Positions 8,417-57,392 of a stretch of 64,000 nucleotides of DNA are shown one piece after another (position 1 is the first letter of the stretch; each line of letters starts with the position of its first letter). Made by a program: the position numbers and the translations under genes. The stretch lies in NCBI GenBank assembly GCA_036426205.1, contig CM071570.1, forward strand, positions 144,320,015 through 144,384,014, read 5' to 3'. The stretch comes from Ascaphus truei (taxonomy: Eukaryota; Chordata; Amphibia; Anura; Ascaphidae). The notes below the pieces were generated by a model, which saw only the letters and a list, made by a program, of their open reading frames with translations, was not told the origin of the DNA and did not search any database.

Positions 8417-10069
8417 CAGTTAGGTCCGGAAATAATTGGACACTGATACAAGTTTTGTTATTTTGGCTGTGTACCAAAATATATTCAATTTACAGTTAAA
8501 TAATGAATATGGGCTTACAGTGTAGGCTATCAGCTTTAATTTGAGGGTATTCACATCCAAATTGGAGGAAGGGTTTAGGAATTACATCTCTTTAATATGT
8601 AGCCCCCTCTTGTTCAAGGGACCAAAAGTAATTGGACAATTGACTCAAAAGCTGTTTCATGGACAGGTGTGGGCTATTCCTTCATTATTTCATCATCAAT
8701 TAAGCAGGTAAGAGGTCTGGAATTGATTCCAGGTGTGGCATTCGCATTTGGAAGCTGTTGCTGTGAACCCACAACATGCGGTCAAAGGCACTCTCAATGC
8801 AAGTGAAACAGGGAATCCGTAGGCTGCAAAAAAAAAAAGAAAATCCATCAGAGAGATAGCAGGAACATTAGGAGTGGCCAAATCAACAGTTTGGTACATT
8901 CTGAGAAAAAAAGAACTCACTGGTGAGCTCTGCAACACAAAAAGGCCTGGACGTCCACGGAAAACAACAGTGGTGGATGATCGTAGGATCCTTTCCATGG
9001 TAAAGAACAACCCCTTCACAACATCCAGCCAAGTGAAGAACACTCTCCAGGAGGTAGGCATATCATTATCCAAGTCTACCATAAAGAGAAGACTTCACGA
9101 GAGCAAATACAGAGGGTTCACCACAAGGTGAAAACCATTCATAAGCCTCAAGAATAGAAAGGCCAGATTAGACTTTGCCAATTAATATCTAAAAAAGCCA
9201 GCCCAGTTCTGGAACAGCATTCTTTGGACAGATGAAACTAAGATCAACCTGTACCACAATGATGGGAAGAAAAATGTATGGAGAAAGCTTGGAACAGCTC
9301 ATGATCCGAAGCATACCACATCATCTGTAAAACACGGTGGAGGCAGTGTGATGGCATGGGCATGCATGGCTTACAATGGCACTGGGTCACTAGTGTTTAT
9401 TGATGATGTGACAGAAGACAGAAGCAGCCGGATGAATTCTGAAGTGTATAGGGATATATTGTCTGCTCAGATTCAGCCAAATTCAGCAAAATTGATTGGA
9501 CGGCGGTTCCCTTTACAGATGGACAGTGACCCAAAACATACTGCGAAAGCAACACAGGAGTTTATTAAGGCAAAGAAGTGGAATATTCTGCAATGGCCGA
9601 GTCAATCACCTGATCTCAACCCGATCGAGCATGCCTTTTACTTGCTGAAGACAAAACTTAAGGCAGAAAGACCCATGAACAAACAACAACTGAAGACAGC
9701 TGCAGTAAAGGCCTGGCAAAGCATCATAAAGGAGGAAACCCAGCGTTTGGTGATGTCCATGCGTTCCAGACTTCAAGCAGTCATTGCATGCAAAGGATTC
9801 TTGACAAAGTATTACAAATGAACATTTTATTTATGATTGTGTTAATTTGTCCAATTACATTTGAGCCCCTAAAATAAGGGGACTGTGTATGAAAATGGTT
9901 GCAATTCCTAAACGTTTCATACGATTTTTTTGTTCAACCCTTTGAATTAAAGCTGAAAGCCTGCACTTCTATTGCATTTCAGTTGTTTCATTTCAAATCC
10001 ATTGTGGTGGCGTACAGAGCCAAAATTATGAAAATTGTGTCAGTGTCCAATTATTGCCGGACCTAACTG
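8417..10069 (+). mobile_element. Tc1-type DNA transposon, end to end (1653 bp)
   Basis: The ends are inverted repeats: CAGTTAGGTCCGG at 8417 mirrors CCGGACCTAACTG ending at 10069. Similarity continues for about 60 bp on each side (ATTGGACACTGA..., then GGCTGTGTAC against GGCTCTGTAC). The element is flanked by TA on both sides (8415-8416, 10070-10071), the Tc1/mariner target duplication. Length fits the ~1.6 kb family norm. It sits in TA-rich microsatellite. It encodes one dead transposase. Confidence 0.95.
8776..9821 (+). pseudogene. Tc1 transposase, inactivated
   Basis: The probable start ATG at 8776 is in a different frame from the rest; the shift falls in an A tract near 8828-8840. The N-terminal helix-turn-helix region reads AKSTVWYILRKKEL and contains the GRPRK hook, followed by a second DNA-binding half. 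Stops at 9129-9131 (TGA) and 9183-9185 (TAA) interrupt one otherwise continuous frame. The catalytic part shows LWTDETKI (first Asp), MDSDPKHTAK (second Asp region) and SPDLNPIEHAF (Glu), the DD34E pattern of Tc1. The C-terminus ends normally before 9821. The enzyme would cut and paste the flanking inverted repeats; with one frameshift and two stops it cannot. Confidence 0.93.
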
Positions 10070-13190: not shown

Positions 13191-14001
13191 TTATGGATAG
13201 AAAAACCTCTTGTGGCGCTGAGGATAGGTGGCTGGAACAAGAGTCTTGTGCTGAGGTATCTGTTATATAAGCTCAGAAAGGGAGACAAGAGAAATACAAA
13301 CAACACAATAGTGTATTATCCTTTAGACAATATAAGACATGTGGATGGAAAATGAAGCAATTTATTAATTAAAACAATTGTGACTACAATTGAAATAAAA
13401 CATGAACTGTAAAATAAACAGTGGATGATCTTCTGTTAATAAAAGAGATAGGGGCTTCTCAGCATTTAAGCTGAGAGAAGCCTTGCTGCTCCACCAGAGG
13501 TAAAACCGAAATCCTACTCACCGTCCTGGAGTAGGACATGTGCATTGGTACGGGGTCTTTAGCCAGGGGTATCCGTCTGCTGTGGGGTGCCGGACGTCTG
13601 CTTAGAGCGTGCGGGGAGATCTCAGGAATACTCGTGCATTCAACAACACCGCGTGGATTTCGCGCGTCTCCTCCGCTGACGTCACCGCCGGATTAACTCA
13701 GCTACGGTGTCCCTGGATGACCAGAATACCTTCCTACGCGTTTCGAAACACTCGATCACGTGTTTCTTCGTCAGGGAATATAACAGATACCTCAGCACAA
13801 GACTCTTGTTCCAGCCACCTATCCTCAGCGCCACAAGAGGTTTTTCTATCCATATCTTGCATATCTGGTTGGAAGATCCCAGATTAACCCTCTACGGCAG
13901 CTCCAGGACTACCTACCCCCTAGGACTGTATCCCAGGTTTTGTTTCTCCTGTTTGTTTGCAATTGTTGCACTAGCGCTTGTATACACTTATTTTACACCT
14001 T
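13191..14001 (-). mobile_element. Non-coding PLE-type insertion with inverted arms and a hammerhead
   Basis: TGTGGTCTTACTAA at 13177-13190 recurs at 14002-14015, a 14 bp target duplication inside the LINE RT. The insertion has two perfect inverted arms of 75 bp (13192-13266 and 13779-13853, ATGGATAGAAAAACCTC... on the plus strand of the first). A hammerhead core lies at 13731-13778 (minus) next to the second arm. No ORF of size is present, so this is a terminal-repeat remnant or non-autonomous PLE. Confidence 0.8.
13731..13778 (-). ncRNA. Hammerhead ribozyme core, all conserved bases present
   Basis: On the minus strand: stem I TTCC (13778-13775), core CTGACGA (13774-13768), A, then a 7 bp stem II GAAACAC/GTGTTTC (13766-13760 with 13751-13745). 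The loop is about 8 nt. Core GAAA (13744-13741), CGCGTA, and stem I return strand GGAA (13734-13731) complete it. Stem III is only the ACGCGT palindrome, as in PLE hammerheads thought to work as dimers. This is the best-formed ribozyme in the window. Confidence 0.8.
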
Positions 14002-15966
14002 TGTGGTCTTACTAATGCTTTGTAAAGGGGCATAATTATATTTACTTCCCTTCCATCCATTGCCCGTTTGATGCAAGATAAGATCTTGTTTGCCTTTGCA
14101 GCTACTGCATGACATTGGGCACTATTGCTAAGCCTGCTATCTACAAGCACTCCTAAATCCTTCTCCATCAAGGATTCCACCAATATATCTCCATTTAATT
14201 TGTAAGTCGCCTTTTTATTCTTGCATCCCAAATGCATAACCTTACATTTATCTGTATTAAACCTCATCTGCCATTTACCTGCCCACGTTTCCAGTCTCTC
14301 CAAGTCCTTCTGAAGAGAAATTACATCCTGCTCTGATTCTATTACCTTACACAATTTAGTAACATCAGCAAAGATGGAGACTTTGCTCTCGATCCCAACC
14401 TCAAGGTCATTAATAAACAGGTTAAAAAGCAGGGGTCCCAGTACCGATCCCTGAGGTACTCCACTCACGACTTTAGCCCAACCTGAAAAAGTTCCATTTA
14501 TGACAACTCTCTGTTGTCTGTCCTTTAACCAGTTTTCAATCCAGGTGCATATATTATTACTGAGTCCAACTTTCTTTATTTTGTACACCAACCTCTTGTG
14601 TGAAACCGTATCAAAAGCCTTTGCAAAATCTAAGTAGACCACATCAACTGCATTACCCTGGTCTAAATTCCTACTTACCTCCTCAAAGAAACAAATAAGG
14701 TTAGTTTGGCAAGATCTATCCTTCATAAATCCATGCTGACTATTACTAATAATTTTGTTTTCCATTAGGTATTCCTGAATATTATCCCGTATTAAACCTT
14801 CAAGTAGTTTCCCTACTATTGAAGTCAGGCTTACAGGTCTGTAATTTCCCGGTTGTGATCTAGCTCCCTTTTTAAATATAGGCACCACATCTGCTTTACG
14901 CCAATCTTGTGGTACTGAGCCTGTGGAAATTGAGTCCTTGAATATTAAATATAATGGTTTGGCTATTACTGAGTTTAACTCCTTGAGAACTCTTGGAAGT
15001 ATGCCATCGGGGCCAGGTGCCTTATTTACTTTAATTTTTTCAAGTCGCTTATGAACTTCTTCCTCAGTTAACCAATTGTTCATTAATATGGAGGTTGTGG
15101 CTTCCTCCTACGGCACTACTATTGAACTTGATTCTTCCCTAGTAAACACAGAGGCAAAGAATTTGTTTAATACGCTCATCTTTTTCCTTATCTCCAATAA
15201 TCTGCCTACCCATCTCACACTGAAAGGGTCCTATATTTTCTTTTCTCATTTTTTTGTTATTAAGGTACTTAAAGAACTTTTTAGGGTTGACCTTACTTTC
15301 TATTGCAATCCTTTTTTCATTACCCACTTTTGCTAATTTGATTGCCCTTTTGCAATTTTTGTTACAGCTTGTTGTTCAAATACGTCCATATTTTAACAGT
15401 TTCGTCTCAAACAACGAAACTGTCCATACGGAACATTACTAAGCCACATAGTATGATGGTTACTATTGGCTAGTATGTAATTGTTCCTCTCTACTGTTTT
15501 ATTGAACGTCTTTGTTTCAATTTTCCTTGGTCTATGTAAATGACGAGATCTAAGAACTCCAAATGTTCTTTTCTATAAACGTTATGAACACCAAATTAAG
15601 AGGATTTTGGTTGAGATCAATCAAAAAGGCATCCAGAGATTCCACATTCCCCTTCCAAACAAAAAGGATATCATCTATATAGCGCTGGTACAGAACCAGG
15701 CCTGCCCAAGGTCTGCTCTTGACCATATATACTGGTCTTCCCTATAGCCCAAAAGAAGATTGGCATACCCAGGGGAAAACCTGCGTCCCATCGCTGTAAC
15801 CTTAGTATGTAAAAAAACAAAAACTTGCTGTCAAAAAGAAAGTTGTGGGTTAAAATAAACTGAATATACTCCAAAAGAAAATCTATTTGCAAAATTTCCA
15901 AATCGCCATAGTTCTCCAGAAATTATTTCACTGATTTGCAGCCATCATCATGCTCAATCACAGTAT

Positions 15967-19321: not shown

Positions 19322-20790
19322 TACTCTGTATTGTATTGTATTGTATGTCTTTATTTATATAGCGCCATAAATGTACATACAGTAGCGCTTCACAGTATTA
19401 ATACATATCATATAAATAACAAATAATATAAATAACAGATCATGGGAATAAGTGCTTCAGACTTAAAAGTAACATTAAGGAAGAGGAGTCCCTGCTCCGA
19501 GGAGCTTACAATCTAATTGGTATGTAGGAGGAACGTACAGAGATAGTAGGAGGGAATTCTAGTAAGTGCGTCTGCAGGGGGGCAAGCTTTATGTATCATG
19601 TGTCCATGATTATCCAGTGCTATTCATATGCTTCTTTAAGCAGATGTGTCTTAAGGTGGGTCTTAAAGGTGGATAGAGAGGGTGCTTGTCGGGTATTGAG
19701 GGGAAGGGCATTCCAGTGGTGTGGGGCAGAAAGTGAGAAAGGTTTAAGGCGGGAGAGAGCTTTAGATACAAAGGGAGTAGAAAGAAGACATCCTTGAGAA
19801 GAACGCAAGAGTCTGGATGGTGCATAGCGAGAAATTAGGGCTGAGATGTAAGGAGGGGCAGAAAAATGTAAAGCTTTAAAAGTGAGGAGGAGAATTGAGT
19901 GTGAGATACAGGATTTGATCGGAAGCCAGGAGAGGGATTTCAGGAGGGGAGATGCGGAGACAGATTTAGGAAAGAGTAGAGTGATTCTGGCAGCAGCGTT
20001 TAGGATAGATTGTAGGGGAGACAGGTGAGAGGCAGGAAGGCCGGACAGCAGGAGGTTGCAGTAATCGAGACGTGAGAGAATGAGGGCCTGAGTCAGAGTT
20101 TTAGCAGTCGAGGTAGAAGTAACAGAGGAAAGGGCGTATCTTTGTGATATTGCGGAGGAAAAAGCGACAAGTTTTAGAAACGTTTTGAATATGAGAGGAG
20201 AATGAGAGAGAGGAATCAAGTGTAACCCCTAGGCAGCGTGCTTGGGCTACTGGGTGAATGATCGTATTTCCAATAGCAATGTGGAAGGAGGTAGTTAGGG
20301 CCATTTTTGGGAGGAAGTATAAGGAGCTCTGTTTTTGCCATGTTAAGTTTCAGTCGGCGGATGGCCATACAGGATGATATTCCAGAGAGGCATTCAGAAA
20401 CTTTGGTCTGTATAGCAGGTGTAAGGTCAGGGGTTGAAAGGTAAATTTGTGTGTCGTCAGCATAGAGGTGATATTTAAACCCAAAAGATGTGATTAGGTC
20501 ACCTAGAGAGAGTGTGTTACGAGAAAAGAGAAGGGGTCCCAGGACAGAGCCCTGGGGTACCCCCACAGAGAGATCAATAGAGGAGGAGGAGGTGTTAGCC
20601 AAAGAGACACTGAAAGTACGATGGGAGAGGTAAGAGGAGATCCAGGATAGAGCTTTGTTCTGAATACCAAGCGTATGGAGAATGTGAAGGAGAAGAGGGT
20701 GGTGCACGATGTCAAATGCTGCAGAGAGGTCGAGTAATATGAGCAAAGTGTAATGACCTCTGTCTTTGGCATACTGTAAAAAGTGACCAG
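19322..20790 (-). mobile_element. L2-type LINE, 5'-truncated
   Basis: Minus-strand element whose 3' end is a short-repeat tail (TTGTA units at 19328-19350 on the plus strand), preceded by the GCGCTATATAAATAAA-type L2 3' end. The coding part reaches to about 20790, where similarity ends. Confidence 0.88.
19620..20746 (-). pseudogene. L2 reverse transcriptase fragment
   Basis: 20746-20216 encodes [26 protein letters not shown] and the catalytic YADDTQIY. After frameshifts near 20220-20310 the frame 20219-19620 gives the C-terminal domain, with LILSRLDYCNLLLSGLP and a C-terminus ending KTHLLKEAYE. Palm residues are intact but at least one frameshift separates palm from C-terminus. The upstream fingers and endonuclease are missing. 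L2 proteins copy their RNA at a nicked target. Confidence 0.9.
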
Positions 20791-21435
20791 GCCCACTGGA
20801 GTATACAGTACATAATACTATTTAGATGCCTTTTGTAGTGTCAAAATGTTGTTTTATGTTGCAATCGTGTAGACATAGTCTGGCTCTTCACAGAGTCTGC
20901 TGAGAGGAATAAATAAAAGATTTGTTTAGTAGCAAAATAACCACAAGATTTCAGTTGACTTATTATTACATGTAATAGAAAAATTCTGGTACAAAGCTGG
21001 AGATAATACTTTAGATTTTGTCACAGAAGTTGGCATCATTTTTCATTCAAGGCTTGCAGTTCCAAGCAGTGAAGGTAACAATGGAAGACAATTTTACTGT
21101 ACAATGCTTGTGCACCTTTCTCTTCATCCCTATTCCCATACACTAAATAAGTGCTGGGCAAGCCCACGCCTTGAGGACTATCAACAGGCCAGGTTATCAA
21201 GCTTTCTCTAATTAACGCATCCTCTACCAATTAATTCAGCTCTAATTATGACTATGGAAAGTTGCTCGGGTAGATATTAATCTGAAAAGCTGCCCTGTTT
21301 GTGGCCCTTGAGCTGCACTAAACAGATCTTGCCTGTAATCACAATTTTAAAATGCTCCATGTCCCTCAATAGCATCATTTCTTAGAGGAAATATGAATGG
21401 TATATTTACTTGTGCTATTTATGAGGATTTGGCCT

Positions 21436-31269: not shown

Positions 31270-31444
31270 CCTTGTGTGAGCAACTTCCTGCTTTTTAAAG
31301 CACTTGTTTCACTCATGAGTTCAGCCCCTGTTTAATCAGTCTTCAGCTGTGCTTTCTCTGTCTGAGGAGATTTACACTCAGTGATCTGGCTGCAGCATCT
31401 CTCCATTCACTGTCACAGCCTACTGAGTCAGTGACTCTGTCACA
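31270..31444 (-). repeat. Truncated 3' LTR
   Basis: 31270-31444 matches 37507-37681 almost base for base (CTTGTGTGAGCAACTTCCTG ... GACTCTGTCACA). On the minus strand it begins TGTGACAGAGTC; the downstream R/U5 part is absent. Confidence 0.9.
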
Positions 31445-31459
31445 TATCCCTCTCCCCAG
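31445..31459 (-). promoter_or_regulatory. Polypurine tract next to the 3' LTR
   Basis: On the minus strand GGGGAGAGGGATA lies immediately before TGTGACAG, where plus-strand DNA synthesis of an LTR element would be primed. Confidence 0.75.
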
Positions 31460-31599: not shown

Positions 31600-32165
31600 T
31601 TACCAGGCTTCTGGGCCTGAGGACTGGTACCTCACTATCTCCTTTAGATCAGATGCAAGGCTGAAATCTTGTAAAACTATGGAGTCCTCCAAGGTTTGTT
31701 TGGCTTCGTTAAGCTGCACTCTTAAATCTGCAATCTTTAACTGTAATTTTCTTGATTTCGCGGCATCCGCTGGTATATCCACGCTAACAATTGGCTCTCG
31801 CAGCTCAGAGACTATTTCTGCCACAATCTGAATTCTCCGGTCATCATCTTTAACAATACGGAGCAATAATTCCACTAGACATGTTATAAGGGAAGTTGGT
31901 GTATTAGGTATCACAAGCATCTCTTGTAGGACAGCAAGAAGGCGTTTCCTGCCTCCTTCTTCACTGGTATCTAGACAGCCGACTATAAGAATCAGCTGCT
32001 GACCTATTAATTCTTTAATCAGCATGTCTTCAATTTGTGTCATATCCGCTTTTTGTTCTTCTGTGAGAAAGCAGGGTTTTGAAGATAACTTAAGAGATAG
32101 TCTGCATAGACAGCGGGCTCTGGTAAAACATGTTCCAGTGCAGCCTCCCCTTCATCATCCTTTGA
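31600..32165 (-). pseudogene. ncapg: Captured segment of condensin subunit G (NCAPG/CAP-G)
   Basis: About 170 residues resemble the middle of vertebrate NCAPG, a HEAT-repeat subunit of condensin I that compacts mitotic chromosomes. Diagnostic stretches are LEHVLPEPAVYADYLLSYLQ (end of the upstream frame), QQLILIVGCLDTSEEGGRK, RLLAVLQEML and LQDFSLASDLKE. The reading is continuous without introns, so it was probably taken from spliced mRNA. The first ~30 residues are in the coiled-coil ORF's frame; the rest is in another frame starting at the ATG at 32043, whose ATGA overlaps the upstream stop. A small indel near 32075 accounts for this. NCAPG similarity stops near 31625 and a stop follows at 31600-31602. 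Identification is from memory of the family. Confidence 0.82.
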
Positions 32166-33551
32166 CTTTATCTCTACCGCCACCTTTTCCTTGGACTGCT
32201 TCAGTGACCCAAACGTCTGTCTTGGGCTTGTAAGCTTTTCCTCCAGCTTCATCTGAGAAACCTCCTGCTGGGCAGCAGTAGAGTCCAACGTAGCGTCCCG
32301 CTCAGACTTTAGAGACTCAAGCTCCTTGCCTAGGTCACACTTTTGTTTCTCCGCCATCTTGCGGCCAGCCCGCTCAGACTCCAGGTCCTTCCTCCGGTCT
32401 TGAAGCAGTCCTTCTGCCTTTCTTCTTTCACTCAGTGCGGCTGCTAGTTCATCTTCGTTAGAATTGAGTCGCGATTCTACGTCTCCTAGCAGACTCAGAG
32501 AAAGGCTTAAATCTGTCTCTCTTTCTTTATTCTGGACCTGCAGCTGCTGGTGCTCCTCCCGGACCTTGTCTAGCTCCAGCTGTAGCCGGGCCCCCTCACT
32601 GGTCGTGTAGTCCAGCCGCTTGTGGATATCAGCCATCTCAGTTTCATGGTGCAACATCAGGCAGGCCACCTGACGGACGGACACCTCCTCCGTCTTGGCG
32701 CGCTGCATCTCGTGCTCAGCCATCTGCATTTGCAGCTCTTCAATCTGATGCTGCCAGTCCCCTCTCAGGGCTTTCACCTCTTCCCGGTGCTTACTCTGGG
32801 TTTGCATCAACGCCTCCTCCATCTTTCTGAGCTCTGCAGTTCTTGTCGCCAGTATCACTGTTGCTTCTGTCTTCCAGGCTTCTTTCTCCTTGGCATACTG
32901 ACTCATGGAGATGGAGTTGCCTCTCTGCTTCTCCAGCTCTTGCTCCAGTCTTTGGACCTTCTCATGTTCCCTCTCACACAGAGTCACCTGGCTTCTAAGC
33001 TCCGCCTCCAGCGATGCTCTTGTGGCACTCAACGTGATCTTCAGCTGCTCCAGGGCGAGGCATTCTTTTTCCAGCATTTTCTCTGCATTCTGCAGAGCAG
33101 CCTGTACTTCATTTTTTTCTTGCGCCAATTGTGTCTTCACTTTCTGCGCTTGGTGAAGCTTCTTAGTCCCATCACTGACCTGACCAGTCAGGTTTAAAAC
33201 CTCTTCCTTCAGGTTTATATTCTCCATTTTCACAGTCTCTATATCCCTTAGGACCGTTTCATTGGCTTTCTTCAAAGTACCCAGCTCTGCCCCTAGCGAT
33301 GCTCTTGTGGCATACAGCGTGGCCCTCAGTTCCTCATGCTGTTCTGTGAGGACATACTGGGTACTCAGCCTTTCCTGTAGCACTTGCTGCTTCTCCTTGG
33401 CTGCTTGCAGACTTGCATGTAGCTCTTGCAGCTGGCTCTGCCATAAGTGCATTGCCTGTGTGTGCTGCTGCAGGGAGACACGTTGCATCCTCTCTGCATT
33501 CTGCAGTGCTTCCTGCACCTCTAGGTTTTCCTGGATCAATTGCTTCTCCAC
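32040..33551 (-). pseudogene. Coiled-coil protein ORF of the LTR element, C-terminal part
   Basis: 503 codons, almost entirely Glu/Lys/Gln/Leu heptad-like sequence predicted to form a long coiled coil. It contains an internal duplication: EVQEALQNAERMQ against EVQAALQNAEKML, and ATRASLGAEL against ATRASLEAEL. The segment ETVLRDIETVKMEN matches ENALRDLETVKKEN of the upstream ORF, showing both derive from one repetitive protein. The start at 33551 is only where the frame emerges from the 33557-35567 insertion. The last ~39 residues are NCAPG-like. The coiled coil may be a structural gag substitute or a second captured host sequence; I do not recognise its source. Confidence 0.75.
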
Positions 33552-34149
33552 TTTTGAAGTGAAACTTCTTTAGTGGCACCTCATTCGAACTGGGCACAAA
33601 TAATTGTGGAGACAGAAATGAACGATGTGACGTCATTGCTGGCAGTTTGAGGCCGGGCTGTTTTCTGGCTCGCCCGACCCCAACACTGACATGATCCCAA
33701 CCGCATTCCAAAAAATCAAAGCGCGCGGCGGCGATATCCGCCGGCGCTCATCCTAATGCAGCTCCCCCGCTCCCCCCACACGGCGCAACATCTGCCGCCG
33801 GCGCCGCTCCTATGCTGGCATCATTTCCCCCAGTTGGAGATGGCACGGCGCATCCGGGGCAGTGGACCGGGCCCGGCTCTACTGCTACAACCCTCTGACT
33901 GCTCCTGGAGCCAGGCCGCTCTCTGTCCCAGCCGCACGCCAACTCAAATGACAGTAGTGCTCTGTACTCCATCGGGGCGAGTGCTTCCGCTGCATGGTGA
34001 TGGCGGCAGCATCTACTGCTTGAACCGGCGCACCTTGCAAGTCCCCTGCCCGGAGCAAACACACTCAAACACACTGACACACACAAACACACATAAATAC
34101 ATACACATACCTCCGCAGGTGGTCTGCTGCCACAGCAATAACCGGGCGG

Positions 34150-34345
34150 AGACTCCTCTCCGCGGGCTGGCACTCCTCTGCCGCCGGGGCGAGACTCCTC
34201 TGCGCGGGGCGGGAGACTCCTCTGCCGCGGGCTGGACACTCCTCTGCCGTGGGGCTGGACACTCCTCTGCCGCGGGGCTGGACACTCCTCTGCCGCGGGG
34301 CTGACACTCCTCTGCCGCCGGGCGGGAGACTCCCTGCCCGGCCGG
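34150..34345. repeat. GC-rich minisatellite, ~23 bp unit
   Basis: About eight copies of a unit like ACTCCTCTGCCGCGGGGCTG, with variants ending GGGCGGGAG. CpG content is very high. Confidence 0.85.
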
Positions 34346-34609
34346 GCGGGAGACTCAGACAGAGCTCCCCCCCTGCTGTCTCACTCGCGTACAGGCAGCA
34401 ATGACTTTTCATCATGCCGTCAACCTCTGCGCAGCCGCGCGCCACGCATGTGCAGTTATCATGGCGACCCTGTCGGACGCCATGCATGTGCAGAAGCGTC
34501 TGCAGCATTGCCGTTACCCCCGACGCGCACATTAATTTTGAATAAAAGGATACGGAGCGCAGACCACCCACCCACACCTCCCTGTGTCACAAAACGCTGT
34601 GTCACAAAC

Positions 34610-35010
34610 CCATTTGGGCAGGGCAAGGGTGCTGGGGGGGCAGGGCAAGGGGTGCGTGGGGGGAAGGGCAAGGTGTGCTGGTGGGGGTATGGCAATGGGT
34701 GCTGGTGGGGTAGCGGGTTGCTGGGGCAGGACAAGGGTTCTGAGGGGCAGGGACAAGGGTGCTGGTGGCAATAGCAGAGTGCTGGGGGGCAGGACAAGGT
34801 GCTGCGGGGCAGGACAGGGTGTCGGGGGCAGGACAATAGGGTGCCGGGGTCAGGGCCAGGGCAAGGTGCCGGGGGCAGGGCAAGGTGTGCCGGGGGGCAG
34901 CAGATGTGCAGGGGCCAGGGCAAACTGGCGGTGGGCAGGACAAGAGGGCAGGGGGCCAGGCAAGGGTGCGTGGGGGGCAGGGCAAGGGTCCTGGTGGGAG
35001 TCAGGAGAGG
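34610..35010. repeat. G-rich minisatellite, irregular ~20-28 bp unit
   Basis: Repeated GGGCAGGGCAAGGTGCTGGG-like units with many G runs of 3-7, giving strong G-quadruplex potential on the plus strand. Confidence 0.85.
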
Positions 35011-35029
35011 GGGCAGACACAGACAGACA

Positions 35030-35330
35030 TACACATCACACATACACTGGACACACCACACTTGACTGACACCAGTACACCACTGACTGACACACACACA
35101 CACACTGACGGTGCCGCACACACAGACACACCTGACTGGTGCGCAAACTGACCCGCACACCAACGCACACTCTGACGCACGCACACACCTACGCATGCAC
35201 AAACACTGACTGACGCACACAAACACACACACTGACTGACGCGCACCACTGACACAACTACTACACGCACGCACACTCTGACACACGCACACTTAACACA
35301 CGCATGCACATTACACACACACGACCTCGT
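35030..35330. repeat. CA-rich imperfect repeat with CACTGACTGAC units
   Basis: Alternating CACACA tracts and ACTGACTGACGC units. It could adopt Z-DNA in part. Confidence 0.8.
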
Positions 35331-35616
35331 ACGCACGCCCAACACCACCCCAGTGATTCGCCGAACACCACCCCTGATGACGTGTCTATTCCCCCCCGAA
35401 CCACCTCCCACCCCCCACCCCTGTGATCTCCCCACTCCGCTCACATCCATGATGCCGGTACTGCTGCCAATAAACATGACCCGCCAATCACATTTACTCA
35501 TTTTCTAAGCAGTAATAATATTATTGTTACTTTATATGTTGCTACAACACACAAAGAAGTTTCACTTACTATGCGCGTGCACAGCACACACAGTTTTTTC
35601 CTGCTTGGTGGAGCTT

Positions 35617-36627
35617 CTAATCACCTTTACTGATTTGATCAGTCAAGTCTGAATTTTTCTGCATCAGACTTACATTCTCCTTCTTTACAGTCTCTAAATC
35701 CCTCAGGGCATTCTCATGGGTTTCCTTCAACATACCCAGCTCTGTGTTTAGACTGTGGCCCTCCTGGCGTGAGAGCTCCAGCTCTGTTTTGAGTGTGCTT
35801 GCTTCTTGGTGAGAAACTTCTAAGTCTTTGATGAAGTTTTGCACATCCCTCTGGGACATCTGATAGCATAGTCTCCAGTCAGGACTTGTTCTCTCTGATT
35901 CCATGTTAGCAATTGCGGTGTTGGCCTTATCCAAACTTGTCGGCAGCTCCTCCAACTCACTCCGTAAGAGATGCTCTGTTTTCTTTAAAGCCGCATACTC
36001 TTGTATAGCTGGGAGTATACACCTCTGTACCTCGGCGTTTGCTTCTCGCTCCCTATTCAATTGCTTCTGCAAGGCATCATAATCACGGTGGGCAGTTTGG
36101 AGTGCAGAAATTAAGGCCTCTTTTTCCTGGATCAAGGATTCAGCTTCCCTTTGCTCCTCCTTTTCCTTTGCCACCGTTCCTGTGACAACTCTGCCGGTCA
36201 CTCCGGTCTGCAGCACATCTCGGCGCCATTCTGACGCATGTCCTGACAGCGCAGGTTCAAGTGGCTTGGTCACTTCCCCTGTGATTAGAGGAACAGTTTT
36301 CTTTTTCTTCTTTCTTTTTGCTTTATTAGCTCCAGAGATATCAGTGGTACTGGGCACACGCTCACTGGTATCAGCTTCCACATCTTGCTTGCACTCATAG
36401 GGCGTTGCTTGCTTTTGCAGCTGTTTGTCTTTGAAAATTTTGGGGCACACATCTTCCATGTGACCTACTTTGTGACAGGCCCAGCATACTAAATTCATCT
36501 GTGGGTACGGCTCTCCTCCAGGGGCCACATACGAGTCGTCATCATCATCATCATCATCGTATGGCCTGAAGGGACACTGTTTTGTATGGTTATGTACATT
36601 GCAAAACTGACACTTGACGGCGGCCAT
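35617..36627 (-). pseudogene. Zinc-knuckle/coiled-coil ORF of the LTR element, N-terminal part
   Basis: The frame is open from 36693; ATG at 36627 (MAAVKCQFC) is the more likely start because the first Cys motif follows at once. Motif 1 is CQFCNVHNHTKQC (C-X2-C-X4-H-X3-C), then an Asp run of eight coded by ATC-type repeats. Motif 2 is CWACHKVGHMEDVC, a canonical C-X2-C-X4-H-X4-C knuckle. A lysine-rich stretch (AKRKKKKK) and a long coiled coil follow. The stop at 35617-35619 is TAG where the duplicated unit downstream has a Lys codon, so it looks like a nonsense change in an originally longer frame. A nucleocapsid-like RNA-binding role is likely. No capsid fold is recognisable. Confidence 0.75.
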
Positions 36628-36657
36628 TTTAAAACCCCGTTTTTTGTTTGTTTGTTT

Positions 36658-36950
36658 TTTCACACCCGACGAGGCAGACTTTGCACAACACACGTAAGTT
36701 GTATGAGCTTTACAATCTTTGAACCTTCTGGGTTCTTCTTAGGGCAACTTCTTTGCAAAAATCCATTTTCACTTTCTTTTTTACCAGACAGGGCAAACTT
36801 TACCTCACAGCACTTGCTAGCTGCAAATTCACTCACTTCAGCAAAAGGCATTAGCTTTACACAGCAATTCTTTCATACCCGACGGGGCAAAATTTACACT
36901 CAGCGCTTGCTAGCTGTAACTTCCATGCTTCAGCAAAAATCATTTTTTTC
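36658..36950 (-). repeat. Repeated leader motif between primer site and ORF
   Basis: CCGACGAGGCAGACTTTGCA (36665), CAGACAGGGCAAACTTTACC (36785) and CCGACGGGGCAAAATTTACA (36878) head related units that share CACTTGCTAGCTGCAA-type sequence, spaced about 90-120 bp. Confidence 0.65.
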
Positions 36951-37007: not shown

Positions 37008-37024
37008 TCCCACTTCTGACACCA
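37008..37024 (-). promoter_or_regulatory. Primer-binding site for tRNA-Leu
   Basis: The plus strand reads TCCCACTTCTGACACCA, the 3' end of a vertebrate leucine tRNA including CCA. It lies 2 nt from the LTR edge, the proper place and orientation for priming minus-strand synthesis of a minus-oriented element. Confidence 0.85.
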
Positions 37025-37026
37025 CC

Positions 37027-37681
37027 TGTGGCAGGACGGCCTCGCGGCGGGGTCAGTAAGACGCTAGATACGATGGGAAACGTTCAACTATAGTGGTTTA
37101 TTAGCCACAACCAAAATAATTTACGGTTGCACTGTCCCTTTAAGAAACTACTTTCTTGAAAATTAAAGCCTGTTCCCTTTAGGGAAACTAACTCACTTCT
37201 TGAGCCCTTACTAACAAGACAGCCAGCTAATCTGATCATGCCCAAAACATATGCAACACAAAGTATTACCAATAAGTGTAATAATAAAGTCTTATCTATT
37301 GCAGCTCCAAACAGCAAACAGGAACACGGTTCCGGGGAGTAGGCTGTGTCCAGCCTCGCAGCAGTGTTTATCTTTATCCTGGGTTGGGGTCCCAGCTGGT
37401 CCCAGCAGCAAAGCTCCTCGCAGGACTGGGGACCAGGGCAGCAGCAGCTGCTACGGCTTCCAAGCCGGGAGATTTCTCGCCACCTTCCTGTGGAAAAACA
37501 AGCTCACCTTGTGTGAGCAACTTCCTGCTTTTTAAAGCACTTGTTTCACTCATGAGTTCAGCCCCTGTTTAATCAGTCTTCAGCTGTGCTTTCTCTGTCT
37601 GTAGAGATTAACACTCAGTGATCTGGCTGCAGCATCTCTCCATTCACTGTCACAGTCTACTGAGTCAGTGACTCTGTCACA
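37027..37681 (-). repeat. 5' LTR (655 bp) of the ncapg-carrying element
   Basis: Plus-strand ends are TGTGGCAGGACGG and GACTCTGTCACA (TG/CA). It aligns with the solo LTR at 56743-57392 over its full length and with the truncated 3' LTR at 31270-31444. The minus strand has an AATAAA near 37100, a plausible polyadenylation signal. Confidence 0.9.
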
Positions 37682-38036
37682 ATATATATATAGACACACA
37701 AGTATAACCGCATCAAAAAAACCTCAGAGAATCATTACTGATCAGAAGCCAAAAATACGCCAAAAATAAAGGCAGATGGCGGTGCTATGGGAAAAATTGA
37801 TATAAACACACAAAAAAGACAGAAATCCCAATGAAAAGCACTCAGATCACGAAAAATATCATTTAAATGCAAAAGGGTTTATTAATCATGGACAGAAAAA
37901 ACACTGCAACAAACTAAAAATGACATACATCTAAAAAACAATACCAGACGGGGAAAACACAGTCATCTCAAATCCCACAAAATTGCTAATTGTACCAAAA
38001 AAAAACCCCAAACAGGATTCCCAGATGGCAGTACTC

Positions 38037-38393
38037 TTCTGAAGAGAGACCGGAAAAGACCACCGAGTCCATCCTTCCTAAACAAAGGATCATAGCGGCT
38101 GCGGCATTCAACAATCTTGAGAAGATCATCAAATCACAGAAACATCTTCCGACCGGTCTTGAGGTTCCGAAAGACACTTTGTACGTAGAGCCCAAATTCA
38201 TTCCTGAGATACTCGACTGGGGACATGCTGCCCATTCGGCAGGGCATCCAGGATTCAACAAAACGTTGGATCTCATCCGTCGCACTTTCTGGTGGCCCAA
38301 TATGGCCAAGACCATTCTCAAATTTACACGGTCCTGTCCAGTATGTGCACGTAACAAGATTCCTCGTCAGAAACCTCAGGGGGGCAGAGGAGG
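38037..38393 (+). pseudogene. Ty3/gypsy integrase N-terminal zinc-domain fragment
   Basis: Within the frame 37990-38397 the peptide DWGHAAHSAGHPGFNKTL ... RRTFWWPNMAK ... CPVCARNK gives the H-H-C-C zinc-binding domain and the following WWP motif of gypsy integrases. Upstream is linker; the catalytic core is absent. The fragment stands alone, with no LTR attached, about 350 bp right of the LTR at 37681, in the opposite orientation to the ncapg carrier. It therefore belongs to a different element. Confidence 0.85.
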
Positions 38394-38805
38394 ATGATCT
38401 ATACACACACAGAGGGAATCAGAGGATGCCACTGGGTATGATGACCGGCCGGTCCTAAAATAGATCCTAAAGGGGGCCACAAGTATGACAATTCATGGAT
38501 TCTAATATACATATAGAAAAACCTGATATGCAGGCATGCGTGAGAATCAGAAATGTAACATATAAATACCAAGTTGTACAAAGCAAATATGATATTGATC
38601 AAACAAATAGATACTCAAGTGAGGGCAGACATTGTCACCCAGAGGGTAATCAAAGCACTGAAAATATGTGCAAACATGTGCTCTCCCTCTAATTGGGCGT
38701 AACTAATTAGCTGCTCACACACAGGGATGAGAGAAAACATCAAACCACACTCATATAGCAAGAATCGCACTAATACTGATTAAATAATCTACTAATGTGC
38801 AAACA

Positions 38806-39290
38806 AATGCTACATAAACCAGATAGTTCAAAATGAATAAACTGAAGGCTAGGTAAGGAGGACATCACCACACGTATGTGGAAAAAAATTGACATAGAGA
38901 AAACCCTGGATAAAATGGAGGACAGTCATGGGTATGCAAATAGTAGCTTAGTAGCTGGAGTTTCCATACGTGGGACACAGTCGTTTGGCTGATTTACAGC
39001 CTCTCTCTCCACTCTCAGCAGCTATCTTGCTCATCCAGCTCGGCGATGGTGGTTTGCCTGCTTTAACCTCTTTGTGGCCAGATCATGGAGGACTGATTAA
39101 TACCCGCAACGGAGGCGCATGACACGCACATGGTGATATTTTCCCTAAGCTACTATTTGCATACCCATGACTGTCCTCCATTTTATCCAGGGTTTTCTCT
39201 ATGTCAATTTTTTTCCACATACGTGTGGTGATGTCCTCCTTACCTAGCCTTCAGTTTATTCATTTTGAACTATCTGGTTTATGTAGCATT
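38806..39290. repeat. Perfect inverted repeat, 145 bp arms, 195 nt spacer
   Basis: 38806-38950 (starting AATGCTACATAAACCAGATA) is the exact reverse complement of 39146-39290. I read no mismatch between the arms, which implies a young duplication or gene conversion. The spacer contains CTCTCTCTCC and no ORF. It lies beside the PLE ribozyme at 39416-39452. Confidence 0.92.
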
Positions 39291-48105: not shown

Positions 48106-48863
48106 GTCAGGAAGCAGGGCTCACGCAACACCTCCTTACCTGCCTCGGAGGTCGTTGCTGCCGGCCCCTCGCTCCCCGCTGACGAGTCCTCGGCGTGGGA
48201 CTCGGTGATCTAGCCCGACGCCGGTTCTTGCGTCCGCCATCATGTCAGGCGCGCGCAGGAGGATCTTACACAGCGCGCGCCTCCGGCAGTAATTTATTCA
48301 CTCCTCTGGCCTTCTAGCCACTCCCCCCGCTCCAGCTCTCACACTCCACAGCTGATCACAGGCAAGGATCACAGCCTGTACCAGTCACAAGGCGCTCCAC
48401 GGCACCCCCCCGCTCTGCCTCCTTCCCTGATTGGTCCCTCCACGTATATTTCCCCTGTTCTCCCTGGGAATCATTGCTCTGCATAGCTTCTGCTAGTTGG
48501 GCTAGTATTCGTGTGTGCTCTTGTTCTTCGTATTCTTCAGGTTTGACCCAGCTTGGCTTTCTACTCCTCCTCTGGCTCTGGACCCTGGCTTACTCCTCAC
48601 AATGCAGTCTCTCTCTGCCCTTCGATCTCGGCTCGCTCCTCTACCTCCCGGAACTCTGACACCCTCGACCCCCGGCTACGGCAATCACCACAATTCTTCT
48701 ACCTCCGGATACGGCAAGTACCTTTGGTCCCCTTACTAAAGACTCCTGGCCTGGCAACTACTACCACACACCCGGACATGCCCCTCTGCTGCGGGTGTGT
48801 GGTATTATACATTCCACCTCAGTCTTGGGACGGGTCTGGTCTGCGGGCAGCACTACCGTGACA
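48106..48863 (+). mobile_element. Ty3/gypsy 5' LTR
   Basis: TGTCAGGAAGCAGGG starts it and CACTACCGTGACA ends it, directly before a gag ORF. The end region (CCACCTCAGTC...) matches that of the solo LTR at 58198-58979, which supports the boundary. The first ~300 bp are GC-rich. No primer site could be named, because gag starts only 2 nt after the LTR. Confidence 0.78.
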
Positions 48864-48865
48864 TT

Positions 48866-49475
48866 ATGCAGAGCCCAACCGATGCAGACCAGATCGAGAC
48901 TGATGAACCTACCTTAGACCAAATTCTCTCGGCCCTGGTGGTACAGAACCAAACCATGTCCATCCAGATCTCTGACCTAGCTCAACGGCTAACCAACCTT
49001 TCTCTCCAGGGTGCACCACCTGGCGTTTCCTCCCCGTCTCAGCCCAGATCTCTTGGTGCAGCCACTCCTGAGACCAAGATACCCGCACCGAAACCCTATG
49101 CTGGCGATCCGCAGGCCTGCCGCGGATTCCTAAACCAGTGTGAGGTCCAATTCGAGATGGCGCCTCTTCAGTTCACCACGGGACGTAAGAAAGTGGCGTA
49201 TGTGTACTCCCTCTTGACGGGTGGCGCCCTGGCCTGGGCTTCTCCGATTTGGGAATTACGGCCAGAGATAACCCAAGTCTATGCTCTCTTTCGTCAGGAG
49301 TTTCAGCAGGTGTTTGACACTCCCGCACGTCAGGATACGGCCTCTTCTTCCCTTTTCTTTTGTCACAGGGGCACCGTTCTGTGGCCAGATATGCTCTGGA
49401 ATTCTGTACCCAAGCAGCTGAGACCCGTTGGAACCAGGAGGCACTCATCGCCATCTTCTGGCAGGGGTTATCATA
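48866..49475 (+). pseudogene. Ty3/gypsy Gag (capsid) fragment
   Basis: ATG at 48866 opens MQSPTDADQIETDEPTLDQI. A Pro-rich linker leads to the capsid region PKPYAGDPQACRGFLNQCEV, then RKKVAYVYSLLTGGALAWAS, the retrotransposon-gag signature of gypsy elements related to the Sushi/PEG10 group. A single-base shift near 49368 moves the frame; in the new frame the capsid continues (ARYALEFCTQAAETRWN, then ALIAIFWQGLS). It ends at 49475, where microsatellite begins. The rest of gag and all of pol are missing. Confidence 0.9.
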
Positions 49476-49477
49476 AA

Positions 49478-50611
49478 CAGACACACACACACAGAGAGAC
49501 ACTCACAGACACATAGAGAGAGAGAGAGAGACACACACAGACACAGAGAGAGAGACACACACAGACACACAGAGACACAGAGAGAGACACACAGACACAC
49601 AGACACAGAGAGAGAGACACCCAGACACCCAGAGAGAGATACACAGACAGAGAGAGAGAGACACACACAGAGAGAGAGACACACAGACACAGAGAGAGAG
49701 ACACACACAGACACACAGAGAGACACACACAGAGAGATACAGACACACAGAGAGAGACACACAGACACACAGAGAGAGACACACACAGAGACACAACACA
49801 GAGAGAGACACACACAGAGAGAGACACAAGAGAGAGACACACACAGAGAGAGAGAGAGAGACAGAGAGAGTGAGATAGTACAACCAAGATATAGAGAGGA
49901 GAGACGCAGAGAGAGGAGAGAGAGAGAGAGAGAGACCACTACAGCATAGAGAGAGATCCACCACACAGCCAGATGACGAGGAGACCCGACCGACACAATG
50001 AGAACAGATCCACGAGAGATACTAACAACAGAGATAGAGAGACACACAGAGAGAGAGACCAGACACAAGAGAACCACAAGATACGAGAGACCACACAGAG
50101 AGATCCAGAGCCAGAGAAGAGAGACACCGTACCCACAGAGAGCGACAAGCAGACATAGATAGAGAGAGAGAGAAAGATACGAGAGACACACACAGAGAGA
50201 GAAAACAGAGAGGACAACACGACAGAGACACCTAGGTGAGAGAGACAACAGAGAGAGTGAGGAGACACGAGAGAGAGTACGACGCAGAGAGAGAGAGACA
50301 AGAGAAGAGAGAACACAAACAACACACAACAGTAGAGTGAGAAGTAGACACACACCATGAGGATAGAGAAGACAACACAACCACAGATAGATAGAGATAG
50401 CACAGAGTCGAGATGACACACAAGATATAGAGAGATACAGATATGAGAGAGAGAGAGAGAGAGAGATGAGAAACAACGACGAGAGAGAGAGAGAACACAG
50501 AGAAAGAGAGAGAGACCATACACGAGAGAGATAAAGCAGACCCCTACAACAGAGAGAGAGACACAGATAGGAGAGAGCGAGAGAGAGAGGCTACACACAC
50601 ACACATGAGAG

Positions 50612-56742: not shown

Positions 56743-57392
56743 TGTGCCAGAGTCACTGACTCAGTAGGCTGGAACAGTGAATGGAGAGACGCTGCAGCCA
56801 GAACACAGAGCATTAATCTCCTCAGAAAGAGAAAGCACAGCTGAAGACTGATTAAACAGGGGCTGAACTCATCAGTGAAACAAGTGCTTTAAAAAGCAGG
56901 AAGTTGCTCACACAAGATGAGCTTGTTTTTCCCCAGGAGGGTGGAGAGACTCCTCCCGGCTAGGAAGCCCTAGCTGTTGCTCTGGTCCCCCAGTCCTGCG
57001 AGGAGCTTTGCTGCTGGGACCAGCTGGGAACCCAACCCAATATAAAGATAAAGATTGCTGCGAGCTGGACACAGCCTGCTCCCCGGAACCGGTGTTCCTG
57101 TTTGGTATTGGAGCTGCATTAGAGATAAGACTTTATTATGATACTTATTTGTTATACTTTGTAGTGCACATGTTTTGGGCATAACCAGATTAGCTGGCTG
57201 CCCTGTTAGTAAGGGCTCAAGAAGTGAGTTAGTTTCCCTAACGGGAATAGGCTTTATTTTCTAGAAAGTAGTTTCTTAAAGGAACAGTGCATCCGTACTT
57301 TATTTTGGTTGTGGCTAATAAATCACTACAGTTTAAAGTTGCCCATCATGTCTAGCGTCTTACTGACCCCACCGTGAGGCCGTCTTGCCACA
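56743..57392 (+). mobile_element. Solo LTR of the ncapg-carrier family (650 bp)
   Basis: Starts TGTGCCAGAGTCACTGACTC, ends GGCCGTCTTGCCACA, flanked by AATG on both sides (56739-56742, 57393-57396). It aligns over its whole length with the reverse complement of 37027-37681. AATAAA-like GCTAATAAATC lies near 57315. The orientation is opposite to the carrier. Confidence 0.88.

Follow-up and report, generated by a model that had tools for sequence, protein, structure and literature searches.

A probable non-autonomous LTR retroelement joining pieces of NCAPG and other host-like genes in the frog Ascaphus truei

Capture of single genes by vertebrate endogenous retroviruses (ERVs) is known, and collages of several genes in one reading frame have been documented mainly in plants. 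Acute transforming retroviruses carry pieces of host exons fused to a gag-like frame and are replicated with the enzymes of a helper. The maize LTR element Bs1, according to the sections of the source drawn on here, contains segments of three host genes, those for a plasma-membrane ATPase, a xylan endohydrolase and a beta-1,3-glucanase, in a hybrid frame (PMC13317346). In vertebrates, part of the work on crocodilian ERVs (CrocERV31) describes the capture of KIT ligand and nectin3, which were copied onward (PMC4299795). LTR-mediated retroposition, as outlined in the portion of the source used here, proceeds by template switching between element RNA and mRNA; the gene pieces that end up flanked by the LTRs lack introns and are usually partial (PMC5408686). 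A search of the open-licence PMC literature retrieved neither an LTR element reported to carry NCAPG nor an account of the Ascaphus family described below, and no vertebrate LTR element with several captured host genes.

Here, we analyzed a 64-kb window, that is, the whole stretch of Ascaphus truei DNA under study. It contains what is probably a damaged non-autonomous LTR retroelement that joins pieces of myosin, lamin and NCAPG, likely from spliced host mRNAs, and that was likely copied by the enzymes of another element.

LTR element and its reading frames

The 5' LTR of the element is 655 bp long (37027–37681, minus strand), starts with TGTGACAG and ends with GCCACA, as delimited by self-comparison and alignment. 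Self-comparison of the whole window revealed a same-orientation repeat of 31270–31444 and 37507–37681. The former interval (minus strand) represents the first 175 bases only of the 3' LTR, with 171 of the 175 identical to the 5' LTR. A solo LTR of the same family was found at 56743–57392 on the plus strand, with AATG at either side; in the window self-comparison it is identical to the whole 5' LTR in 587 of 660 columns, in inverted orientation. The LTR pair is direct and has TG...CA ends, the CA end being visible only in the 5' and solo LTRs. Because the 3' LTR is cut, a target-site duplication is unreadable for the NCAPG-bearing copy.

A primer-binding site, TGGTGTCAGAAGTGGGA (37008–37024, minus strand), was identified two bases past the 5' LTR end. 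We take it to be complementary to the 3' terminus of vertebrate tRNA-Leu. No tRNA gene was detected in the 64-kb window by a scan with the bacterial code. The sequence also contains a polypurine tract, GGGGAGAGGG, followed by ATA (31445–31457, minus strand), directly before the TG of the 3' LTR; on the minus strand, GGGGAGAGGGATA at 31457–31445 abuts the LTR start. The LTR pair, the primer-binding site and the polypurine tract share a strand with the coiled-coil ORF and the NCAPG piece, and these parts follow each other as expected of an LTR element. A first-pass annotation of this DNA had placed the NCAPG piece between a coiled-coil ORF and a polypurine tract plus LTR on the same strand, and the match between the two LTRs and the tract before the TG bear this out. 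The coiled-coil ORF is indeed present beside NCAPG, and its host-like nature (myosin, lamin), the 5' LTR and the primer-binding site were absent from that annotation.

No pol domain (protease, reverse transcriptase, RNase H or integrase) was detected by Pfam in the 12 ORFs scanned between the LTRs, a search that very short or decayed remnants could escape, and neither env nor pol was found in the element. The window copy is dead, as it has a frameshift, an interruption of about 2 kb and a cut LTR.

ORF1 (35617–36738, minus strand) spans 373 aa from stop to stop, with an ATG at 36627, and encodes zinc-knuckle-like motifs followed by a coiled coil. The two motifs, CX2CX4HX3C and CX2CX4HX4C (36445–36612, minus strand), were recognized by eye from the translation; Pfam lists no zinc knuckle in ORF1 at E ≤ 1 and gives no ORF1 match above its cut-off. 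Homologues of ORF1 come from Ascaphus truei only, with three proteins at E ≤ 0.001 (3024 candidates). ORF2 (32040–33569, minus strand; 509 aa, stop to stop) encodes a coiled coil that enters NCAPG in frame, and carries the Pfam domain Myosin_tail_1 with an E value of 2.3e-12, over the Pfam cut-off.

Between ORF1 and ORF2 lies a GC-rich stretch of about 2 kb with tandem repeats (33570–35616; 60.3% GC), in whose eight ORFs no Pfam domain was found. Two related Ascaphus truei proteins, P0124 and P0127, have the ORF2 part immediately after the ORF1 part, and the stretch is therefore probably an insertion that split one former frame. ORF1 shares 66% amino acid identity with P0127 over 310 aa, and the window copy is stop-free there. 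In a neutral-drift simulation (n = 400, about half the ORF1–P0127 divergence), the frame stayed stop-free in 4.5% of cases at 8% substitution and in 15.5% at 5%. The stop-free ORF1 is a weak sign that the frame may have been kept.

Other repeats were also identified in the window. An integrase fragment (37990–38397, plus strand; Integrase_H2C2, E 6.1e-20) lies a short way beyond the 5' LTR, in the opposite orientation, and is a remnant of a separate LTR element. The GC-rich tandem repeats at 33570–35616 are perhaps another insertion. The ORF at 48740–49516 (plus strand) has a weak match to DUF4939 (6.3e-6, under the cut-off), looks gag-like and enters microsatellite DNA. The ORF at 9186–9821 (plus strand) encodes a DDE_3 endonuclease (8.1e-15), presumably of Tc1/mariner-like type. 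Reverse transcriptase ORFs at 13971–15107 and 20216–20821, both on the minus strand, match RVT_1 (1.1e-33 and 9.9e-22, respectively), and we take them to be of the non-LTR type. Self-comparison also revealed a perfect 146-bp inverted repeat (38806–38951 and 39145–39290), which resembles a hairpin transposon.

Host-like pieces in the coiled coil

The coiled-coil frames were searched against 177,635 PDB sequences, the chains matched being mammalian, chicken and other ones; NCAPG alone was also matched to an Ascaphus gene. Whole ORF1 matches the Myosin-7 tail with an E value of 4.2e-7, and its PDB matches listed at E ≤ 1 are myosins in 11 of 12 cases, the other one being a keratin at 0.12. The match to a sarcomeric myosin heavy chain tail (Myosin-7, about 1314–1517) covers ORF1 residues 194–370 (35623–36159, minus strand). 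In ORF2, residues 51–206 (32952–33419, minus strand) match another sarcomeric myosin tail piece (Myosin-4 1439–1597; E 9e-13), with 37 of 86 residues identical in the core. Residues 292–412 (32334–32756, minus strand) match coil 1B of lamin A/C (6snz; E 1.9e-16), with 47 of 102 residues identical. The interval 32160–32423 (minus strand) matches the tail of smooth/non-muscle myosin II (Myosin-11 1114–1200, Myosin-9 1108–1191). Searched alone, the segment 32423–32145 matches myosin-11 with an E value of 3.7e-11; myosin-9, -10 and -11 account for all of the six matches listed at E ≤ 0.1. Its 42-residue core is identical to Myosin-9 at 32 positions. One frame thus appears to combine pieces from several host genes, namely those for sarcomeric myosin, lamin, smooth/non-muscle myosin and NCAPG.

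The same backbone was found in other Ascaphus truei proteins. With ORF2 as query, eight proteins were retrieved at E ≤ 0.001 (7996 candidates), comprising six from Ascaphus truei and two weak, unnamed ones. The proteins P0121, P0122, P0123, P0124, P0127 and P0128 share the backbone without NCAPG, and the named matches are from Ascaphus only. P0122 matches lamin in the PDB with an E value of 1.8e-9, and vimentin only above 0.1. P0127 contains C-terminal IQ motifs (Pfam E 6.5e-8), and its best PDB match is myosin-5A (1.7e-6). ASPM is another conceivable source of these motifs. P0128 has no Pfam match and, by eye, shares the start of the P0127 tail. In P0127 and P0128 an IQ-type tail replaces lamin and NCAPG on the same backbone; a single backbone therefore carries differing host modules, such as the NCAPG and IQ tails, towards its C terminus. 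Identity to mammalian PDB chains is about 43–46% for the sarcomeric myosin and lamin pieces. This level of identity, together with the presence of the pieces in the NCAPG-free relatives, would suggest an old age for them.

Alternatively, NCAPG could be the sole capture, and the coil could be the element's own protein, with its lamin and myosin likeness arising from general coiled-coil similarity. Coiled-coil composition does inflate similarity, and identities of 43–46% to sarcomeric myosin and lamin chains are compatible with such an origin. As a control for coiled-coil likeness, however, the first 478 residues of ORF2 were reversed, and this sequence gave 0 matches at E ≤ 1 among the 177,635 PDB sequences. 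The forward sequence gave 12 at E ≤ 0.01, consisting of three lamins, eight class-II myosins and one NCAPG (4.8e-7, residues 467–499). The myosin-9/11 segment is also recognized on its own, with its 32/42 core, P0124 independently matches lamin (2.4e-21), and the collinear stretches match in order. A capture limited to NCAPG is thus unlikely, and a coil assembled from host myosin and lamin pieces is the reading we prefer.

The NCAPG piece, its exon borders and its copies

The NCAPG piece (31639–32168, minus strand) comprises about 177 residues, from KSKDDEGE to SDLKE, and is intron-free with a small early frameshift. Its start shares the frame of the coiled-coil ORF at 33569–32040, and after the frameshift the remainder continues in another frame to 31639. 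The minus-strand frame 32151–31600 matches residues 394–496 of human NCAPG (PDB 6igx_B) with an E value of 6e-30 and 107.5 bits. A protein search with the piece retrieved 376 proteins at E ≤ 0.001 from 1748 candidates. Among the best 120 of these 376, the top three are from Ascaphus truei, with 95–96% amino acid identity, and other frogs share 65–73%. The first-pass annotation had noted a resemblance to NCAPG over about 170 residues and had proposed a minus-strand search against frog NCAPG; the search upholds the assignment, since the best protein matches are NCAPG. An ordinary cluster of NCAPG exons, which it had named as the alternative, is ruled against by flanks that are LTRs rather than NCAPG introns.

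Overall, the window piece is about 95–97% identical to Ascaphus truei NCAPG (P0003). They differ at 8 of 178 positions, which are the junction residue, three positions at the frameshift and four substitutions. Because the piece is nearly identical to the living NCAPG gene, the capture is read as recent; the piece would be young and captured once. At 31639, no NCAPG 3' end or poly(A) was seen, and the piece is an internal part of the mRNA only. It is followed by 3' sequence of the element, the polypurine tract and the LTR. A protein of another frog, Ranitomeya imitator (P0039), joins a reverse transcriptase domain and a condensin domain; it is probably a gene-model fusion and possibly a second frog case.

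Exon borders were deduced from isoforms, not from genomic DNA, with 24 NCAPG proteins gathered and four isoform pairs compared. Of these, P0014/P0108 is informative for the captured part; the differences within P0008/P0006, within P0023/P0017 and within P0104/P0107 lie outside it. In a Hyla sarda isoform, RKLIP...EYLL is missing and the sequence picks up at SYLRTLP, and an exon border is therefore placed where the window reads YADYLL/SYLQN uninterrupted. A Discoglossus isoform goes from SELKE to KNDPETLL, which places the end of the captured piece within one residue of an exon border. The 5' NCAPG junction falls inside the segment skipped in Hyla, where the Hyla isoform suggests exon interior; the Xenopus tropicalis model P0007 hints at an alternative border near LCEHL, on the side of the 5' junction. 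Mapping of the exon junctions, as envisaged in the first-pass annotation, thus gave one junction crossed and one within a residue of the 3' end, and the 5' junction is not clearly at a border. Because the NCAPG piece is continuous over one deduced exon junction, we infer, as the best reading, that it was captured from mRNA, in agreement with the earlier proposal of an intron-free capture.

Two annotated Ascaphus truei proteins, P0001 and P0002, are located on contigs of 439.6 and 330.6 Mb; they are automatic gene models known here at the protein level only. The join of I to KSKDDEGE is common to the window, P0001 and P0002. The NCAPG end reads SELKE before I in P0001 and P0002, and SDLKE before I in the window. 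All three share T52I, and the window and P0001 also share A160T. T52I is derived, since the NCAPG proteins of Ascaphus, Discoglossus and Xenopus have T at this position. The common junctions and T52I therefore point to one capture and later copying, and the NCAPG piece was probably captured once and copied onward. Within P0001, part of NCAPG is repeated, and P0002 is without about 56 coil residues ahead of the junction. The P0002 structure model is of low quality, with a mean pLDDT of 61 and a pTM of 0.28; the NCAPG part falls in blocks of about 40–84, and confident helix is predicted only for the coil (residues about 20–108), with little for NCAPG. A scan of viral contigs with P0001 gave five pattern matches and no relative.

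These data also bear on the possibility of a host fusion gene, in which a coiled-coil/NCAPG gene arose through segmental duplication together with the joining of exons, before LTRs landed on either side. The end of the NCAPG piece so close to a deduced exon border and the annotation of P0001 and P0002 as proteins would fit such a gene. However, the two matching LTRs have the primer-binding site and the polypurine tract, in the same strand orientation, precisely at their inner boundaries, the NCAPG piece runs without an intron over at least one deduced junction, and copies with the same junctions occur on contigs of differing size. We consider a host fusion gene quite unlikely. A LINE-made processed copy of NCAPG mRNA could also have landed by chance in an LTR element, which then spread it, and would account for the intron-free piece in a window that contains non-LTR ORFs with reverse transcriptase. 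Yet no more than an internal part of the mRNA is seen, in frame with the coil at its 5' side and lacking the 3' end and poly(A) of NCAPG, and the bases after 31639 resemble, by eye, the corresponding P0002 tail, which makes this origin highly improbable. That unrelated sequences were brought together by an assembly or gene-model artefact is barely credible: the GC-rich tandem repeats at 34.1–35.0 kb are hard to assemble, but two annotated proteins have the same junctions and differing sequence, and coil and NCAPG are in one frame at the junction.

Proposed mechanism and comparison with known systems

For the preferred reading, a non-autonomous LTR element that gathers host mRNA pieces, the following route may be proposed. 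An autonomous partner whose ends are similar would provide the enzymes that package and copy the element RNA. Host mRNAs taken into the same particle would act as second templates, with the reverse transcriptase jumping onto one of them and back. Such template jumps would leave internal pieces that are free of introns and lack a poly(A) end, and template switching is the likely capture route. The zinc-knuckle/coiled-coil protein might play the part of Gag or of a LINE ORF1 protein; our guess is that its knuckles and coils bind RNA and form multimers. The NCAPG piece may be mainly a passenger.

A broader and distinctly speculative view is that capsid-less LTR elements form a lineage in Ascaphus. 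In these elements, self-assembling host coiled coils (myosin tail, nuclear lamin) would have supplied the material for a remade structural protein, placed behind zinc knuckles that bind RNA, and new host modules (the NCAPG HEAT piece, IQ motifs) would have been exchanged time and again at the C terminus. Such a lineage would be an exon-shuffling machine of the vertebrate germ line; we hold this view to be possible and rather doubtful. A vertebrate family with filament-forming host proteins in the place of Gag would allow capture, spread and possible module use to be traced stepwise. It also bears on the question of whether an LTR element can dispense with the capsid fold.

Compared to acute transforming retroviruses, which are infectious and oncogenic, the Ascaphus element is a genomic element in which no env or pol was found. 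LTR-mediated retroposition differs in that its products are described, in the part of the source considered, as retrocopies, whereas the Ascaphus element contains several pieces in one frame and forms a family of copies. The crocodilian ERVs are alike in being LTR elements of vertebrates into which host mRNA was taken up and then copied onward. As far as that source's treatment used here goes, they carry one gene per lineage, near full-length, and keep their viral genes; in contrast, the Ascaphus element has several partial pieces and no pol was found in it. Bs1, within the sections drawn on, shares with the Ascaphus element the presence of several host gene pieces in one LTR element and in one frame. 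It differs in being a plant element, and its three genes are unmatched here; the Ascaphus element, from a frog, has myosin, lamin, a second type of myosin and NCAPG, with zinc-knuckle-like motifs in front. Collectively, the Ascaphus family is best read as a non-autonomous LTR family that would gather pieces of spliced host mRNAs and work like maize Bs1.
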